From: Ignavibacteria bacterium
GTDB taxonomy: Bacteria > Bacteroidota > Ignavibacteria > UBA10030 > SZUA-254
Assembly: GCA_016178595.1 (NCBI GenBank)
Contig: JACOSY010000060.1
Location: 1 to 64,000 of the forward strand
DNA length: 64,000 bases
Direction of reading: 5' to 3'
Part shown: positions 9,788 through 64,000 of the stretch, in pieces
Position numbering within the stretch: the first letter of the stretch is position 1
How the letters are laid out: each line of letters opens with the position of its first letter
Made by a program: the position numbers and the translations under genes
The notes under the pieces: generated by a model
Told to the model about the DNA's origin: nothing
Seen by the model: only the letters and a program-made list of their open reading frames with translations
Databases searched by the model: none

Positions 9788-12700
9788 ATGAAAACGAAAA
9801 TAACGAAATGGCTCTCAGCGACGGCCATTGGCTTCATGCTTATCGGCGGCGCAGCGGCACAGAAACAAACTGCACAGGTAAAAATCGATGCGGAGACGAT
9901 CTCGGGTTTGGGAGCGCGCAACATCGGTTCAGCGGCGATGAGCGGTCGTGTTGCGGCACTCGATGCCGTGCAGGAAGGGAAGCGGCTCACTGTTTACATC
10001 GGCAGCGCGAGCGGCGGCGTGTGGAAATCGGTCAACGGCGGCACAACGTTCAAGCCGGTCTTCGATAAGCAGCCGGTGCTGTCCATAGGTGCGATCACGA
10101 TCGACCCCAAGAATCCGAAAGTGATCTGGGCAGGAACGGGTGAGTCGTGGACACGTAATAGTGTCTCGGTCGGTGATGGCATCTACAAGTCAACGGATGG
10201 TGGTGAGAATTGGACGAACATGGGCTTGAAGGAATCCGAGCGCATCGTCAAGATTCTCGTCGACTCGACGAACACCGACGTCGTGTATGTTGCCGTTCCA
10301 GGCAAGCTCTGGAGCGACAGCGATGAGCGCGGCGTCTACAAAACAACTGACGGCGGCAAAAACTGGACGAAAATTCTCAAAGGCGCCAACGCCTCGACGG
10401 GCTGTTCAATGATCTCCATGGACAGGCAGAATCCAAAGACGATCTATGCCGGAATGTGGGACTTCCGCAGAAAGGGGTGGACGTTCCGTTCCGGTGGTGA
10501 CAGCGCAGGCGTCTTCAGCGGCAGCGGCCTTTTGAAAACTACGGATGGAGGAATAACATGGAATGACCTCGACGAAAAAACCGTGAAGGGTCTTCCCTCG
10601 AAACCATGGGGACGTGTTGCAGTTGCCGTTGCTCCGTCGAAGTCGAATGTTGTCTATGCGTTTATCGAAGCGGAGCCGCCGAAGAACGGTCTGTATCGTT
10701 CCGACGACGGCGGACAAACCTGGCAGGCGCTTGATCGCAGCCAGGCAATGATTTGGCGGCCTTTCTATTTCGCCAACCTTATCGTCGATCCGAAGAATGA
10801 GAATAAGATTTACAAACCCGACGGGCCGCTCATTGTCAGCACGGATGGCGGGAAAAGTTTCAGCAACATCTCGGGTGGAGCGCATGGCGATTTTCACGAT
10901 ATCTGGATCGATACCAGCAACACTGATCACGTGATCACTGGAGATGACGGCGGCGTGTGGTACTCGTATGACGGCTGCAATCGGTGGTGGAAATCGGAGA
11001 ACCTGCCGATCTCGCAGTTCTATCACGTCAGTGTCGATATGGATATGCCGTATAATGTGTATGGCGGATTGCAGGATAACAGCTCGTGGGTCGGTGAATC
11101 CCAATACCCCGGCGGTATCACAAACAGTCGTTGGGAGAACATGTACGGTGGTGACGGCTTTTGGATGTTCGTCGATCCCTCGGATCCCAATTATATTTAT
11201 GCTGAGTCTCAGGGTGGATACATCGGGCGCATAAATCGGAAGACACACGAGTCGCGCGGTATCCAGCCTTTGCCACACTACGGCGAGGGGAAACTTCGTT
11301 TTAACTGGAACACACCGATTCATGTAAGCCCGACACAAAAGGGAACAATCTATATTGGAGCGCAATTCTTGTTCCGCTCACGCGATCATGGTCAGACGTG
11401 GGAACGCATTTCACCGGACTTGACGACAAATGATCCTGTGAAGCAGCAACAAGAACACTCCGGCGGCGTCACGGTCGATAATTCTTCCGCTGAAATGCAC
11501 ACGACAATTTTCTCAATCGCGGAATCGCCGCGGAACGCAAACGTTATCTGGGTCGGCACAGACGACGGCAATCTGCAAGTCACACGTGACGGTGGAAAAA
11601 CCTGGACAAATGTTGTCGGCAATATCCAGGGATTGCCGAAGAACCCCTGGGTATCTTCAGTTGAAGCAGGCCATTTCGCCGAAGGCACGGCATACGCAAC
11701 CTTCGACCTGCACACCTTTGGCGACATGCAACCCTTTGTGTACAAGACAACCGACTTTGGCAAAACATGGTCGCCGGTGGTCGACAAGGATAGCCCCGTG
11801 CGTGGGTATGCCCATGTGGTCAAAGAAGACCTCGTGAATAAAGATCTTTTATTTGTTGGAACCGAATTTGGTCTCTGGATTTCTCTCGACGGAGGCCGGG
11901 AGTGGGCGCAATATAAGGGCAGCGACTTCCCGAATGTTGCCGTTCGCGACCTTGCAATCCATCCACGCGATCATGACCTTGTCATCGCAACACATGGCCG
12001 CGGAATCTGGATCATCGACGACATCACGCCTCTCCGGGCGCTCACGCCGGAAAACCTTGTGAAGGATGCGGTCTTCATAAAGGCAAATCCTCCGGTGCAG
12101 CACATCTCTGCATCTGGCGGTTGGGCAAACGGCGATGCAGAGTTTTCAGGGCCTAACCCTCCTGACGATGCGACGATCACGTATTACCAGAAGAAGCGCC
12201 ACATCTTTGGCGATCTAAAGATCGAAGTCTTGGATGGGAGCGGCAAGTCGTTGGGTACAATTCCGAGCAGCAAGCGTCGCGGACTGAACCGTGCGACCTG
12301 GTCGATGCGTCTCAAGCCACCGAAGGTTCCGACGGCTGCAACTGCAACCGGTGCCTCCATTGGTCCCCGCGTTCTGCCCGGAACATACACCGTGAGAATG
12401 ACGAAGGACAAGAATGTCTACACGACCAAGCTCAAAGTAGTAGCCGATCCGCGTTCGAAGCATACAGCCGGGGACCGCAGGGCGCAATACGATCTATCGA
12501 TGAAGCTCTACAATATGCTTGGTGATATGACGTTTGCGGTAGACCGGATTAACGGCGTCCGCCTGGCGCTGGATGATCGGGCCTCGAAAGCGACGGCGGA
12601 TGAGCCGCTCGTTCAACGTCTCCGGAGTGCATCGACGCAGGTTGATGACCTCCGCAAGAAAATCGTTGCTACGAAAGAAGGCGGCATGATCACCGGCGAA

Positions 12701-58160: not shown

Positions 58161-58592
58161 GATGATTTCCTTCGCTTGGTAGAAGAGTGTGTAGACGATG
58201 AGAAGCATTTTTAGGTGACACGAGGAGGAACGATGTAAAAGCTTTCCTCTTCGAATAAACGTTGCTGCAAAAATAGGGAAATGGATTGAAAGATGCAAGG
58301 ATGTCGAGAGTTTTCACAATAGAGTAATCAGATGAAGCGGATGCGGGTAGTTACTGATCCATTGGCACTCACTTTGTGTCGGGAGTTTTCTGGAATTGCA
58401 AGAAAGAGTGTATTGAACCTGTCGACAAATTTACGTATGTTAAAGCCGATGCAATGCAGGAGACGGAGAGTCGTAAGAGCTGAGCATCGAGAACTCGCAT
58501 GGAGATTGGATGGCGCGAAAAGGCAGCCGCCAAAGGATGTGCGGGATTTTTTTGAAAAAGAAAACCACCAGGTCGTGGTTCACTCTTCAACT
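58161..58592. other. Divergent intergenic region
   Basis: These 432 bases separate the minus-strand barrel gene from the ABC-F gene and should hold two promoters. The ABC-F frame is open back to an ATG at 58332, but that 87-codon extension is arginine-rich, unlike any ABC-F start, and is probably noncoding. A small hairpin AACCAC-caggtc-GTGGTT lies at 58563-58580. I see no gene here. Confidence 0.5.
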
Positions 58593-60500
58593 ATGTCGAA
58601 CGCCATAAGCCCCGTCATTGTTGCCGCGCATGAACTCGCCGTTCGCTTCGGAGAACAGATTGTTTTGCAAAATGCGGCATTGAGCCTTCATGAAAACGAT
58701 AGAATCGGATTGATCGGAAACAATGGTTCCGGCAAATCGACGCTGTTGAAGATTCTTGCCGGCATCATGGAGCCGGATTCAGGAACGGTGACCCGCAGGA
58801 GAGACCTTGTTACAGGATACCTCTCCCAGGATTTTCAACTCGATCCCTCGCTATCGGTGTACGAGAATATTGTGGAGGGAGCGCACGATGTCATCGCAAT
58901 CCTCAGGGAGTACGACTCTCTTCCGTTCACATCAAAACGACGTCATCTTCTTGAAGGACACATTCATCACCGGGACGGATGGAACCTGGAAAACAGGATT
59001 GAAGCGGCGATGCATTCGCTGAATGCACCTGAGAAGAATCGTGATATTACGACGCTCTCCGGCGGGGAGAAGCGGCGTGTTGCATTGTGCAAGGCAATCA
59101 TCTCCCGTCCCGATCTCCTCATCCTTGACGAACCGACGAACCATCTCGATACGGAATCGATAGAGTGGACGGAGGAATTCCTGGTGAATTACTCCGGCGC
59201 ATGTCTCTTTGTAACGCACGACAGGTATTTTCTCGATTCGATTGCGACCCGGATCGTCGAGCTTGCAGAAGGTGTGTGTCATACGCACGCCGGAAATTAT
59301 ACGGACTTCCTGCTTGACAAGGCGGAACGTGAATCGCAGTTGGAGACGGAAGAACACAAAAGAAACCGCTTCCTTTGCCGCGAGCTTGAATGGGTGCGCA
59401 AGGGGCCGCGGGCAAGAAGAACCAAATCAAAAAGCCGGCTCAGCAAGTATTTTGAAGAGGTGGAAAAGAAGGGACATGAGCCGGAGGCGGAGGTTGAGCT
59501 GATAATTCCCCCGGCAGTACCGCTTGGTTCAAAAATTCTGAACTTGAAGCATGTAGGAATGAAGCTGGGTGGCAAAAAATTATTCGGCGGCGTGGATTTC
59601 AATTTCGACAAAAAAAGAAAGTTAGGCATCATCGGCCGCAACGGTCTTGGCAAAACCACGCTGCTGAAAATCATCCTCGGAGAGCTGCACGCTACGGAAG
59701 GCCGCACGGAAGTCGGGGACAGAACACTATTCAATTATGTCGATCAATCCCGTGTGGCGCTGAACGATGAGAGTACCGTCCTGCAGGAAATTGGCGAAGG
59801 GAACGAGTGGATTGTCTTTGGCGAGGAACGCCTGACGGTGTGGAAATATCTGCGGCGGTTCCTGTTTGCCGACGAGAGGATGCAGACGAAGGTCGGGAAA
59901 CTCTCAGGCGGAGAACGAAGCCGGCTCTTACTCGCAAAGATATTGAAGAACGGCGGGAATTTTCTGATCCTGGACGAGCCGACGAACGACCTCGACCTGG
60001 CGACGCTGCGAGTTCTGGAAGAGGCACTTACAGCATTCGACGGATGTGTGATTGCTGTGAGCCACGACAGGTACTTCCTGAACCGCGTATGCAACGGCAT
60101 TCTTGCATTCGAAGGGGAAGAATATGTGCATTTCAGCGAAGGCGACTACGACTATTATATTGAGAAGCGCAATGCCCGGTTCGCTTCAGCCGCAGCACAA
60201 TCCGCTGTGGTTGATGCCACGAAACCGCGCGGCACGCAGTTGACACTCCAGTCCAATAAACCGTCTAAGAAATTAAAATGGAAAGAAGCGAGGGAACTGG
60301 AGACAATCGAGCAGGACATTCTGCGCGCAGAGGCGGAGGTGCAACGCATTGAGGCAATCTTCTCGGCGCAGGATTTCTATGAGAAGCATGGTGATCAAAC
60401 CGTGCAATTGACTGAAGACCTCGCCGCCGCGAAAGAACAAGTGACGCGACTCTACGCCCGATGGCATGAACTTGAAGAATTACGGGCGGGGATTCAATGA
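58593..60500 (+). CDS. ABC-F family ATPase (Uup-like)
   Basis: A 635-residue soluble protein with two ABC ATPase domains and no membrane part. Domain 1: Walker A GNNGSGKST (about 42-50), signature LSGGEKRR and Walker B LLILDEPTNHLD. Domain 2: GRNGLGKTT (about 348-356), LSGGERSR and FLILDEPTNDLD. The linker between them is long and charged, and the C-terminus (570-635) is a coiled coil like that of Uup. ABC-F proteins act on ribosomes or, for Uup, on DNA structures. The last 53 bases of the gene recur in damaged form at 62012-62062. Confidence 0.9.
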   Translation: MSNAISPVIVAAHELAVRFGEQIVLQNAALSLHENDRIGLIGNNGSGKSTLLKILAGIMEPDSGTVTRRRDLVTGYLSQDFQLDPSLSVYENIVEGAHDVIAILREYDSLPFTSKRRHLLEGHIHHRDGWNLENRIEAAMHSLNAPEKNRDITTLSGGEKRRVALCKAIISRPDLLILDEPTNHLDTESIEWTEEFLVNYSGACLFVTHDRYFLDSIATRIVELAEGVCHTHAGNYTDFLLDKAERESQLETEEHKRNRFLCRELEWVRKGPRARRTKSKSRLSKYFEEVEKKGHEPEAEVELIIPPAVPLGSKILNLKHVGMKLGGKKLFGGVDFNFDKKRKLGIIGRNGLGKTTLLKIILGELHATEGRTEVGDRTLFNYVDQSRVALNDESTVLQEIGEGNEWIVFGEERLTVWKYLRRFLFADERMQTKVGKLSGGERSRLLLAKILKNGGNFLILDEPTNDLDLATLRVLEEALTAFDGCVIAVSHDRYFLNRVCNGILAFEGEEYVHFSEGDYDYYIEKRNARFASAAAQSAVVDATKPRGTQLTLQSNKPSKKLKWKEARELETIEQDILRAEAEVQRIEAIFSAQDFYEKHGDQTVQLTEDLAAAKEQVTRLYARWHELEELRAGIQ

Positions 60501-61442: not shown

Positions 61443-62003
61443 ATGAAGAAATCGAGAACATTGATTCCTGAGGTAATAGAACGGCGGATACTCTTGATCC
61501 GGGGACAGAAGGTTTTGCTTGATGGGCATCTTGCTGGATTGTACGGGGTATCCACCAAAGTCCTCGTTCAGGCAGTCAAGCGCAACATCGCCAGGTTCCC
61601 TTCGGATTTCATGTTCCAGTTGAGTCGTGAAGAAGTGGAGACGCTCGCCCGTTCAAGGTCACAATCTGTGACCTTGAAGCGTGGGAAGAACATCAAGTAT
61701 CGTCCGTACGCGTTCACCGAACACGGTGCCATCATGGCGGCAACTGTGCTCAACAGCCCGCGTGCAGTGCAGATGAGCGTGTTTGTTGTCCGTGCTTTCG
61801 TGCGAATGAGAGAGGCGATGATTGCGCACCGGGATGTGGCCGAAAAGCTCAGAGAGCTTGAGCGAAGAGTCGGCAAACATGACGAGCATATTCAGGCAAT
61901 CATTGACGTCATCCGCCAGCTTATGGCTCCACCCAACCCACCAAAGCGACGGATTGGCTTCGGCGTTGAGGAGCCGAAGGTGAAGTACCGGATTGCGAGA
62001 TGA
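61443..62003 (+). CDS. ORF6N-domain DNA-binding-like protein
   Basis: A 186-residue protein of the ORF6N type, related to phage and virus KilA-N/Bro-like DNA-binding proteins. The domain (about 10-100) shows IRGQKVLLDGHLAGLYGVST, VKRNIARFPSDFMFQLSREE and PYAFTEHGAIMAATVL. A coiled region (115-165) and a tail KRRIGFGVEEPKVKYRIAR follow. GGAGGAGG precedes the ATG. Such genes are common and mobile in FCB genomes. Two further copies of its 3' tail lie downstream, a sign of gene duplication and loss. Confidence 0.82.
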   Translation: MKKSRTLIPEVIERRILLIRGQKVLLDGHLAGLYGVSTKVLVQAVKRNIARFPSDFMFQLSREEVETLARSRSQSVTLKRGKNIKYRPYAFTEHGAIMAATVLNSPRAVQMSVFVVRAFVRMREAMIAHRDVAEKLRELERRVGKHDEHIQAIIDVIRQLMAPPNPPKRRIGFGVEEPKVKYRIAR

Positions 62004-62348: not shown

Positions 62349-62717
62349 ATGTCAGAGAAAGTGCGCATTCTTGTTGCTGAAGACGACACACAATTGCGAG
62401 AGAGCCTGGACCATCATCTCTCTGAGCAAGGGTACGATGTAACTTCCGCATCGGATGGAAACGAAGCCATCCCTCTCATCCATGGAAGAGAATTCCATCT
62501 CGTCATTCTCGATCTCAAGATGCCGTATATCGACGGCTTCGAAATCTTGAAGTTTATTAAATCGACCTTCCCCAATACCAAAGTGATCGTCCTTACTGCC
62601 TATGCGGACCTTATGACTACGGAACGGTGCAAGAGCCTCAACGCAGATGAAGTGATCGGGAAACCGTACAATGTTCAAGACTTGTTTGATGTCATCGAAG
62701 GCATGATGAAGAAGTAG
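62349..62717 (+). CDS. Single-domain response regulator
   Basis: A 122-residue CheY-like receiver with no output domain. All key residues are present: Asp12/Asp13 in AEDDTQ, phospho-acceptor Asp55 in VILDLKMP, Thr83 in VIVLTAYAD and Lys105 in VIGKPY. No kinase gene is adjacent, so its partner is elsewhere. It sits among repeat fragments in the accessory region. Confidence 0.88.
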   Translation: MSEKVRILVAEDDTQLRESLDHHLSEQGYDVTSASDGNEAIPLIHGREFHLVILDLKMPYIDGFEILKFIKSTFPNTKVIVLTAYADLMTTERCKSLNADEVIGKPYNVQDLFDVIEGMMKK

Positions 62718-62752: not shown

Positions 62753-62797
62753 TTCGGCGTCGAAGAGCCGAAGGTGAAGTACCAGGTTGCGAGATGA
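62753..62797 (+). pseudogene. Second copy of the ORF6N gene tail
   Basis: Fifteen codons read FGVEEPKVKYQVAR-stop, matching the end of the ORF6N protein with two amino-acid changes and several silent ones. The upstream part of the gene is missing. Silent differences suggest that it came from a related but not identical ORF6N gene. Confidence 0.75.
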
Positions 62798-62802
62798 AAA
62801 CA

Positions 62803-62897
62803 TCCTCTCCTATTAGGAGAGGATTATAGGTGAGGTCTAAAAAGAATGCGCGACGAACGATGAGACCCCATCCTAACCTTCCCCTAAGAGGGGAAGG
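62803..62897. repeat. Pair of CT-rich hairpins
   Basis: TCCTCTCCT-att-AGGAGAGGA (62803-62823) and CCTTCCCCT-aag-AGGGGAAGG (62877-62897) are perfect nine-pair stems with three-base loops. They match in design the hairpins at 21.73 kb. The segment between them has no gene. Confidence 0.7.
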
Positions 62898-62906
62898 GAC
62901 ATCGCA

Positions 62907-62999
62907 CCGAAGCGACGGATTGGCTTTGGCGTTGAGGAGCCGAAAGTGAAGTACCGGGTGAAGAGAAAAGAAACCCATAACTCGAACGAAAAGTATTAA
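62907..62999 (+). pseudogene. Third copy of the ORF6N gene tail
   Basis: Thirty-one codons begin PKRRIGFGVEEPKVKYR, as in the ORF6N protein, and then diverge to VKRKETHNSNEKY-stop. It is a 3' fragment of another ORF6N gene lying 15 bases before the Z1-family gene. Confidence 0.75.
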
Positions 63000-63014: not shown

Positions 63015-64000
63015 ATGCCACTAAACTTGAATGGGATGTTCTATCGGAACTATACAAACGATGCTGAGCGTTACTCCGACGGGGACAAAGTTTGTATAGA
63101 GCAATCGGTTGAGAGGTTGCAGTCTATTGAGACAAGTGCTGAAAAGCCAGGGATGTTGTTGGGGAAGATCCAATCTGGGAAAACAAAAACGTTTCTTGCA
63201 ATGATTGCATTAGTTTTCGACAACGGTTACGACATTGCAGTTATTCTGACAAAAGGGACAAAAGCGCTTACGAGGCAGACACTTGAAAGGGTTCGTCGTG
63301 AGTTTGCGGCATTCAACGAACGTGACCAACTACAGATATTTGATATTATGACGGTGCCTCAAGGACTCACCGGATATGAACTCAACCAAAAGCTGATATT
63401 TGTTTCAAAGAAACAATCTGACAACCTAGATAGGCTTGCGGTTCTCTTGCGGGATACATATCCTCAACTCGCAAGGAAACGTGTGCTAATAATCGATGAT
63501 GAAGCTGACTACGCCAGCATTGGTTTCCGTAACACGAAGCAGCAGGGATTATTGATCAATACGACGACGCGGCAGATTGAAGCCCTCCGTCAGATTCTCG
63601 CGGCATCCGCGTTTCTTCAGGTGACTGCAACACCATATTCACTGTACCTCCAGCCTGAGAATTTCGCGCCTCAGGGAGTTGAATTTCGACCTGTAAGACC
63701 AGCATTCACAGCGTTGGTTCCTGTAAACCCCAGGTATATCGGCAGTGACTACTACTTTGACCGCAGCCAAGAAGGTAACTCTGTCGCATCTTTCATTTAT
63801 CAACCAGTCAGTGTCAACGAACTGGAAGTCTTGCGACAAGCTGATCGTCGCCGCTTCCGATTAGAAGATTGTCTAACAAGTGATGCCATCCCTGCATTAC
63901 GTTCAGCCCTTTGCAACTTCGTCGTTGGCGGGTGCATCAGGCGTCTCCAAGACAGAAATGCTAATCGAGATCCTAAGAGATTTAGTTTTCTTATTCATAC
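63015..64000 (+). CDS. Z1-family P-loop ATPase/helicase-like protein (truncated by window)
   Basis: The first 328 codons of a large protein that runs off the right edge. Walker A is GKIQSGKT (50-57), Walker B IIDDEAD (159-165), and VTATP (203-207) is a helicase motif III-like element. QSGKT, DDEAD and TATP together are characteristic of the Z1 (superfamily 2 helicase-like) group. Such proteins are reported beside GHKL ATPases, methylases and PD-(D/E)XK nucleases in restriction-type loci. GAGG lies six bases before the ATG. The Z1 domain itself would be beyond the window. The family call is by motif only. Confidence 0.75.
   Translation, partial: MPLNLNGMFYRNYTNDAERYSDGDKVCIEQSVERLQSIETSAEKPGMLLGKIQSGKTKTFLAMIALVFDNGYDIAVILTKGTKALTRQTLERVRREFAAFNERDQLQIFDIMTVPQGLTGYELNQKLIFVSKKQSDNLDRLAVLLRDTYPQLARKRVLIIDDEADYASIGFRNTKQQGLLINTTTRQIEALRQILAASAFLQVTATPYSLYLQPENFAPQGVEFRPVRPAFTALVPVNPRYIGSDYYFDRSQEGNSVASFIYQPVSVNELEVLRQADRRRFRLEDCLTSDAIPALRSALCNFVVGGCIRRLQDRNANRDPKRFSFLIH

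Follow-up and report, generated by a model that had tools for sequence, protein, structure and literature searches.

Does a restriction-type DNA motor gene that lies at the end of a stretch of Ignavibacteria DNA head a multi-gene defence locus, as an earlier note had proposed, or could the motor act without one? The gene starts with an ATG at 63015 on the + strand and crosses the right edge of the window, by which we mean the whole stretch analysed, 64,000 nucleotides, corresponding to bases 1-64000 of a 78,883-bp contig. Its stop lies on the same contig, at base 65195, and the complete protein has 726 aa and is free of internal stops. The part inside the window and its motor motifs, whose conservation we judged in an alignment of 31 relatives (A1), are as follows:

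63015..64000, + strand: lone DEAD-Z1-C motor gene, its 5' 986 bases (Pfam Z1, PADLOC Helicase_II)
63171..63185, + strand: Walker A motif QSGKT, aa 53-57, conserved in A1
63495..63509, + strand: Walker B (DExx) motif DDEAD, aa 161-165, nearly invariant in A1
63624..63635, + strand: SF2 motif III TATP, aa 204-207, nearly invariant in A1

In Pfam, the motor half (ResIII) spans aa 36-208 and scores 26.2 bits (cut-off 22.5), and the Z1 domain (PF10593) spans aa 295-511 and scores 79.9 bits (cut-off 25). A search of the whole 61-contig assembly scored this domain at 83 bits and found no second Z1. The PADLOC family Helicase_II covers the protein end to end (aa 36-709, 160.9 bits). The available text of Iyer 2008 (PMC2292703) gives DThhQXuRhFG as a motif of Z1 helicases, and DTVLQHSRMFG at aa 462-472 fits it, is intact and is conserved among the 31 relatives. 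On its Z1 score, its SF2 motifs and this motif, the protein is a DEAD-Z1 protein. The earlier note had read a Z1-group gene from QSGKT, DDEAD and TATP and had proposed extending the contig rightwards and searching with PF10593, and the full protein does carry a true Z1 domain with all these motifs intact.

The full protein, modelled from a 31-row alignment (mean pLDDT 85.3), is predicted to form an SF2 two-RecA motor followed by a separate C-terminal domain. The best VIA matches of the full model were Mfd (Z 18.3, rmsd 3.7 over 343 residues) and FANCM (Z 17.0), and RadD also scored 16.6. For the C-terminal 215 residues, predicted alone with a pLDDT of 86.5, the sole Foldseek match in the PDB below 0.001 was 6f1s, the C-terminal domain of the CglI H subunit (E 2.1e-4), and VIA aligned the two with Z 12.6 and an rmsd of 2.9 over 139 of 146 residues, the next PDB match having Z 3.2. 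An Hjc-like nuclease was also considered for this domain and rejected, the match being too weak (Z 2.5) and the expected conserved lysine not being seen in A1. Sequence searches of the PDB returned no match for the full protein, one for profile A1 (E 0.17, judged chance) and six for profile A3 (all E 0.13 or worse); the link to 6f1s was obtained by fold comparison and through L139, a CglI-like plasmid locus of Lactiplantibacillus with dcm, PLD nuclease and Z1 genes. Profile comparison joined the window protein to the L139 Z1 protein with a probability of 99.9 and an E of 4.8e-33 over 580 columns at about 26% identity, residues 21-710 aligning with residues 17-608 of 614. The L139 Z1 protein in turn matches 6f1s at 3.6e-11, and its neighbour matches R.NgoVII structures. 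This bridge, together with the C-domain match, indicates that the window protein has the H-subunit architecture end to end. By sequence and predicted structure it is a motor of the CglI H-subunit type, with DEAD, Z1 and C-terminal domain in one chain, and there is good support for reading it as an H-type DEAD-Z1-C motor that stands alone. Toliusis 2018 is reportedly a paper on this H subunit.

How far does the likeness to known systems go? H.CglI/N.CglI (NCgl1705) and N.NgoAVII are the DEAD-Z1-C motor subunits of the ATP-dependent CglI/NgoAVII restriction systems. The window protein shares their three-part architecture and their C-terminal fold, although it is longer than the CglI-like H protein of L139 (726 against 614 aa), and its assembly lacks both the R (PLD-B3) nuclease family and the C5 methylase family. 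RE_NgoFVII gave no match in the assembly, whereas the control, Corynebacterium glutamicum, was detected, and PF00145 gave none; neither the R protein (PLD nuclease plus B3) nor the cognate 5-methylcytosine methylase of a CglI-type restriction-modification (R-M) system is there. In the available text of PMC4267653 and PMC5737866, the CglI complex has the composition R2N2 (R2H2 in another notation), and motor function needs the aspartate-glutamate pair of DEAD; the former adds that the motor hydrolyses ATP only when complexed with the R protein. Without a partner, a lone motor of the H type may therefore idle. MzaC, the Z1 component of the anti-phage system MZA, shares its Z1 region with the window protein, but the latter's 59.2 bits lie far below the equivalog cut-off of 1500, and MZA neighbours were not identified, which argues against membership of that system. 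It carries the motif given for the Z1 helicases of MORC/paraMORC R-M operons in the available text of PMC2292703, yet neither a GHKL ATPase nor a restriction-fold nuclease was found among the neighbours scanned. With the dsDNA translocases Mfd and FANCM it shares the SF2 motor fold, whereas the C-terminal part, which matches CglI H, and the genomic setting differ.

We then asked what surrounds such motors elsewhere. From 84,980 species genomes, one scan recovered 68 loci, and L003-L034 among them fall in the window protein's clade (35-75% identical); further relatives came from a viral scan (L072), a second viral scan (L141, L143-L147), a phage collection (L157) and a search of the phylum (L128, L129). 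Forty that are full-length or nearly so were counted, with L009 and L034 set aside as partial and L142 recognized as the same contig as L072. Neighbours were judged within the fetched stretch, up to 10 kb per side and often less. Eighteen of the 40 lie by R-M genes, which differ widely in type, four by other defence, modification or hotspot genes, 16 by none that we found, and two are on contigs too short to judge (L004, L013). An N6_N4 methylase and a ResIII protein (Mod-Res) lie downstream of four (L005, L006, L008 and L017), and the same pair, divergent, accompanies L072 and L143; that a pair of one kind recurs beside six relatives speaks for coupling. HsdM, S and R adjoin L144, a type ISP enzyme adjoins L007, and R-M genes adjoin L011, L014, L024, L033, L146, L147 and L157. 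Three links are less sure: a C5 methylase 4.1 kb from L010, a Mod remnant at L023, and a Res-like fragment at the contig end of L025. As a yardstick, about ten methylase places in the 3.1 Mb of the window's assembly would, as a rough estimate, put one in about 4% of 12-kb stretches, against 18 of 40 here, the relatives not being independent of one another. The other four settings are Thoeris ThsA/ThsB (L018), AbiH (L129), a phage contig on which the motor stands just before a Mom-type DNA-modification gene and terminase (L145, 8007-11277), and a P2-type portal gene on a contig that ends short of gpA (L141). For P2-like phages, the available text of PMC9122126 describes gpA-gpQ as a defence hotspot with the P2-type portal gene at one edge. 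The Thoeris, AbiH and type ISP attributions come from named scans. With 22 of 40 full-length relatives adjoining R-M, other defence or DNA-modification genes or a P2-type hotspot, the earlier note's view of this Z1 protein as of a restriction-associated kind is borne out.

The 16 relatives counted as partnerless are L003, L012, L015, L016, L019-L022, L026-L032 and L128, the flanks of L012, L015 and L028 being short on one side. A PADLOC scan covered 115 of the 137 listed neighbours, the others being the 11 of L023 and 11 ORFs that are small or antisense. In all, 141 families had a match among the 115, the matching member not being given, and some loci counted as partnerless may hold candidate defence genes. 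At L010 (5848-9461), three genes stand upstream of Z1, the last encoding a DUF6339 protein; PDC-M33A, B and C each had one match among the 115 scanned neighbours, possibly these three genes.

On a tree of 39 rows (the window protein and 38 of the 40 relatives, the broken L022 and L027, which falls outside the alignment, being left out), partnerless and linked members are intermingled, and the partnerless state needs at least eight changes, five of them forced by well-supported branches; placement of the long branches L129, L145 and L072 is unsure. The partnerless label is more clustered than in shuffles (9 of 500 as low), because of near-copies. In two partnerless clades dN/dS was low: 0.08-0.10 in three pairs of the Macrococcus group L019-L021 and 0.11-0.16 in eight pairs of the gut clade L026-L032. 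These values, 0.08-0.16 in 11 pairs, indicate that both clades are under purifying selection and are not decaying. Counter to this, L012 and L013 gave 0.47 at very low divergence, and L022 has an in-frame stop. The DEAD-Z1-C motor is a mobile module that has joined R-M systems of many types, and separated from them, repeatedly.

Our main reading, to which we give a probability of roughly 0.65, is that the window gene encodes an intact ATP-driven dsDNA motor of the CglI H type, likely self-contained or loosely partnered, that acts against incoming DNA. The chain runs from SF2 RecA lobe 1, through a Z1 region with RecA lobe 2, to the H-type C-terminal domain. Family and fold suggest that the motor translocates on DNA with ATP hydrolysis, like the CglI complex, and the neighbours of its relatives suggest that it defends the cell by acting against incoming DNA. 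Given how varied its neighbours are in other genomes, and that partnerless clades are under selection, it would most likely be a self-contained or loosely partnered module and not half of a fixed complex. In this genome it is single-gene cargo, and no dedicated partner lies next to it. That the motor defends on its own is a hypothesis with moderate support. In its fullest form, which we put forward tentatively, the proposal is one of defence against phages or plasmids by a single gene: a self-sufficient DEAD-Z1-C translocase, with no nuclease or methylase of its own, would move between phages, prophages and chromosomes and would be recruited recurrently as an add-on motor by unrelated R-M types (type I, type III-like, ISP, Eco57I-like, Dcm and McrBC). 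To our knowledge, no experiment has shown defence by any member of this DEAD-Z1-C clade, and we found no description of a lone Z1 protein as a defence gene in the open-licence literature.

An alternative that we consider rather unlikely, if still a serious one, is that the motor has lost its own Mod-Res pair and works in trans, either helping or being helped by a different R-M system of the genome. The tree gives this some force, as the window protein falls in a set of six (support 96) with the R-M-linked L005, L006 and L017, all with Mod-Res downstream, the partnerless L003 and the short-contig L004. At L023 (4441-4953), a 170-aa mini-Mod ends directly upstream of Z1; it consists of two C-terminal Mod pieces with 40% and 53% identity to the L017 Mod, the methylase domain is missing, and the locus is possibly an intermediate in partner loss. 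The assembly also has other DNA methylases that might serve in trans, with PF01555 at seven places (six over the cut-off) and PF02384 at four, two of them in one frame, some PF02384 frames exceeding 1,000 aa. However, the best match to an L005-type Mod in the assembly was 17.1 bits over 64 residues, the CglI-type nuclease and methylase families are absent from it, and other clades persist long without an adjacent partner. In a tblastn search for relics of R-M genes, 16 R-M proteins of related loci were compared with the window and with L002, and the best E was 0.17.

It is improbable that the gene is a neutral relic, recently uncoupled cargo drifting towards loss. Partners are absent, and the L022 copy of Macrococcus epidermidis (10001-12154) has an in-frame stop after 223 codons, whereas the copies of its sister species are intact. 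The window copy, however, is intact with all motifs present, and it differs from its full-length nearest relatives at only 20-21% of nonsynonymous sites despite saturation of synonymous sites, relatives too distant for a branch-specific test; the purifying selection on partnerless clades also argues against drift.

Quite improbable, too, is a DNA-maintenance translocase of the Mfd or RadD kind with no defence role. The top matches of the whole model, to Mfd and FANCM, with RadD at 16.6, would suit it, but the C-terminal domain matches CglI H alone and about half of the relatives adjoin R-M or defence genes. Nor does the distribution fit, as within its family the gene occurs in one of 15 genomes (its own), and of 395 genomes in the phylum three, counting its own, have full-length members (seven of 395 have any match at 1e-20). 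Record titles place close relatives in Nitrospirae, Proteobacteria and other phyla, which together with the patchy distribution points to horizontal gain.

That the gene lies at the edge of a Z1-led defence locus of several genes, as the earlier note had it, is scarcely credible, for while the Z1 family and motifs are present, the next 13.7 kb of the contig hold housekeeping or metabolic-looking genes only, essentially the finding that the note had named as refuting it. A 146-aa ORF with no Pfam match follows Z1, then a 281-aa methyltransferase, then tRNA-Ser. Beyond it lie what we take, from reading the ORFs, to be gltX, glnS, folB and folK, and further metabolic-looking ORFs. The note had suggested inspecting the neighbours for methylase, GHKL and PD-(D/E)XK domains; among those scanned beside Z1 we identified no GHKL ATPase, DNA methylase or PD-(D/E)XK (restriction-fold) nuclease, and the methyltransferase matches Methyltransf_31/11/25 and UbiE but no DNA-methylase family in Pfam. 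Its 77 bits to mad2, and the Z1 protein's E of 0.004 to mad8, were put down to generic fold similarity, a MADS set being absent. GC3 is 0.44 in the Z1 gene, 0.58-0.62 in its immediate neighbours and 0.46 in gltX. A clean empty site could not be defined: tRNA-Ser(gct) lies directly by gltX in five of nine family stretches and 1.1-1.2 kb off in two more, whereas the ABC-F orthologue stretches of seven relatives contained none of the window genes from around Z1 and no gltX. The tRNA-Ser as an integration site was considered and rejected, as L002 holds no repeat of any 14-mer from the tRNA and Z1 lies on the 5' side of the tRNA.

Upstream of Z1 lie two genes that we considered to be outside the Z1 unit:

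61443..62003, + strand: ORF6N gene, an intact neighbour (Pfam ORF6N, 102.5 bits)
62349..62717, + strand: stand-alone response-regulator receiver (Pfam Response_reg, 92.4 bits)

The earlier note had seen ORF6N fragments, repeats and a lone receiver here, a setting it took as typical of mobile or defence DNA. ORF6N sequence and repeats are indeed present, but as one whole gene plus two copies of its tail: the final 49-53 bases of the gene are present at three nearby sites (61939-61991, 62753-62801 and 62905-62957; 92-94% identical). These copies flank the receiver gene and recur just before Z1, and the genome-wide search listed them nowhere else. The assembly has four ORF6N copies, and PADLOC PDC-S05 matches the ORF6N gene. 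The receiver is also where the note placed it, but it appears ordinary, since a homologue with 62% identity occurs in G011, one of the nine stretches fetched from the family. Two further features were observed: a 38-base palindromic intergenic element at about 62801-62838, which contains CTCTCCTATTAGGAGAGG and occurs at about ten places in the assembly; and an ABC-F ORF (58332-60500) whose start is probably over-extended, as residue 87-88 is where its alignment with seven orthologues from the family (70-83% identical) begins.

In the available text on the CglI system, H.CglI is described as half of a restriction enzyme, with an ATPase that depends on the nuclease. A broad clade of motors of this type is maintained under selection without partners and, in other genomes, adjoins unrelated R-M systems. 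The finding makes a question testable: can a restriction-type DNA motor defend the cell without its nuclease?
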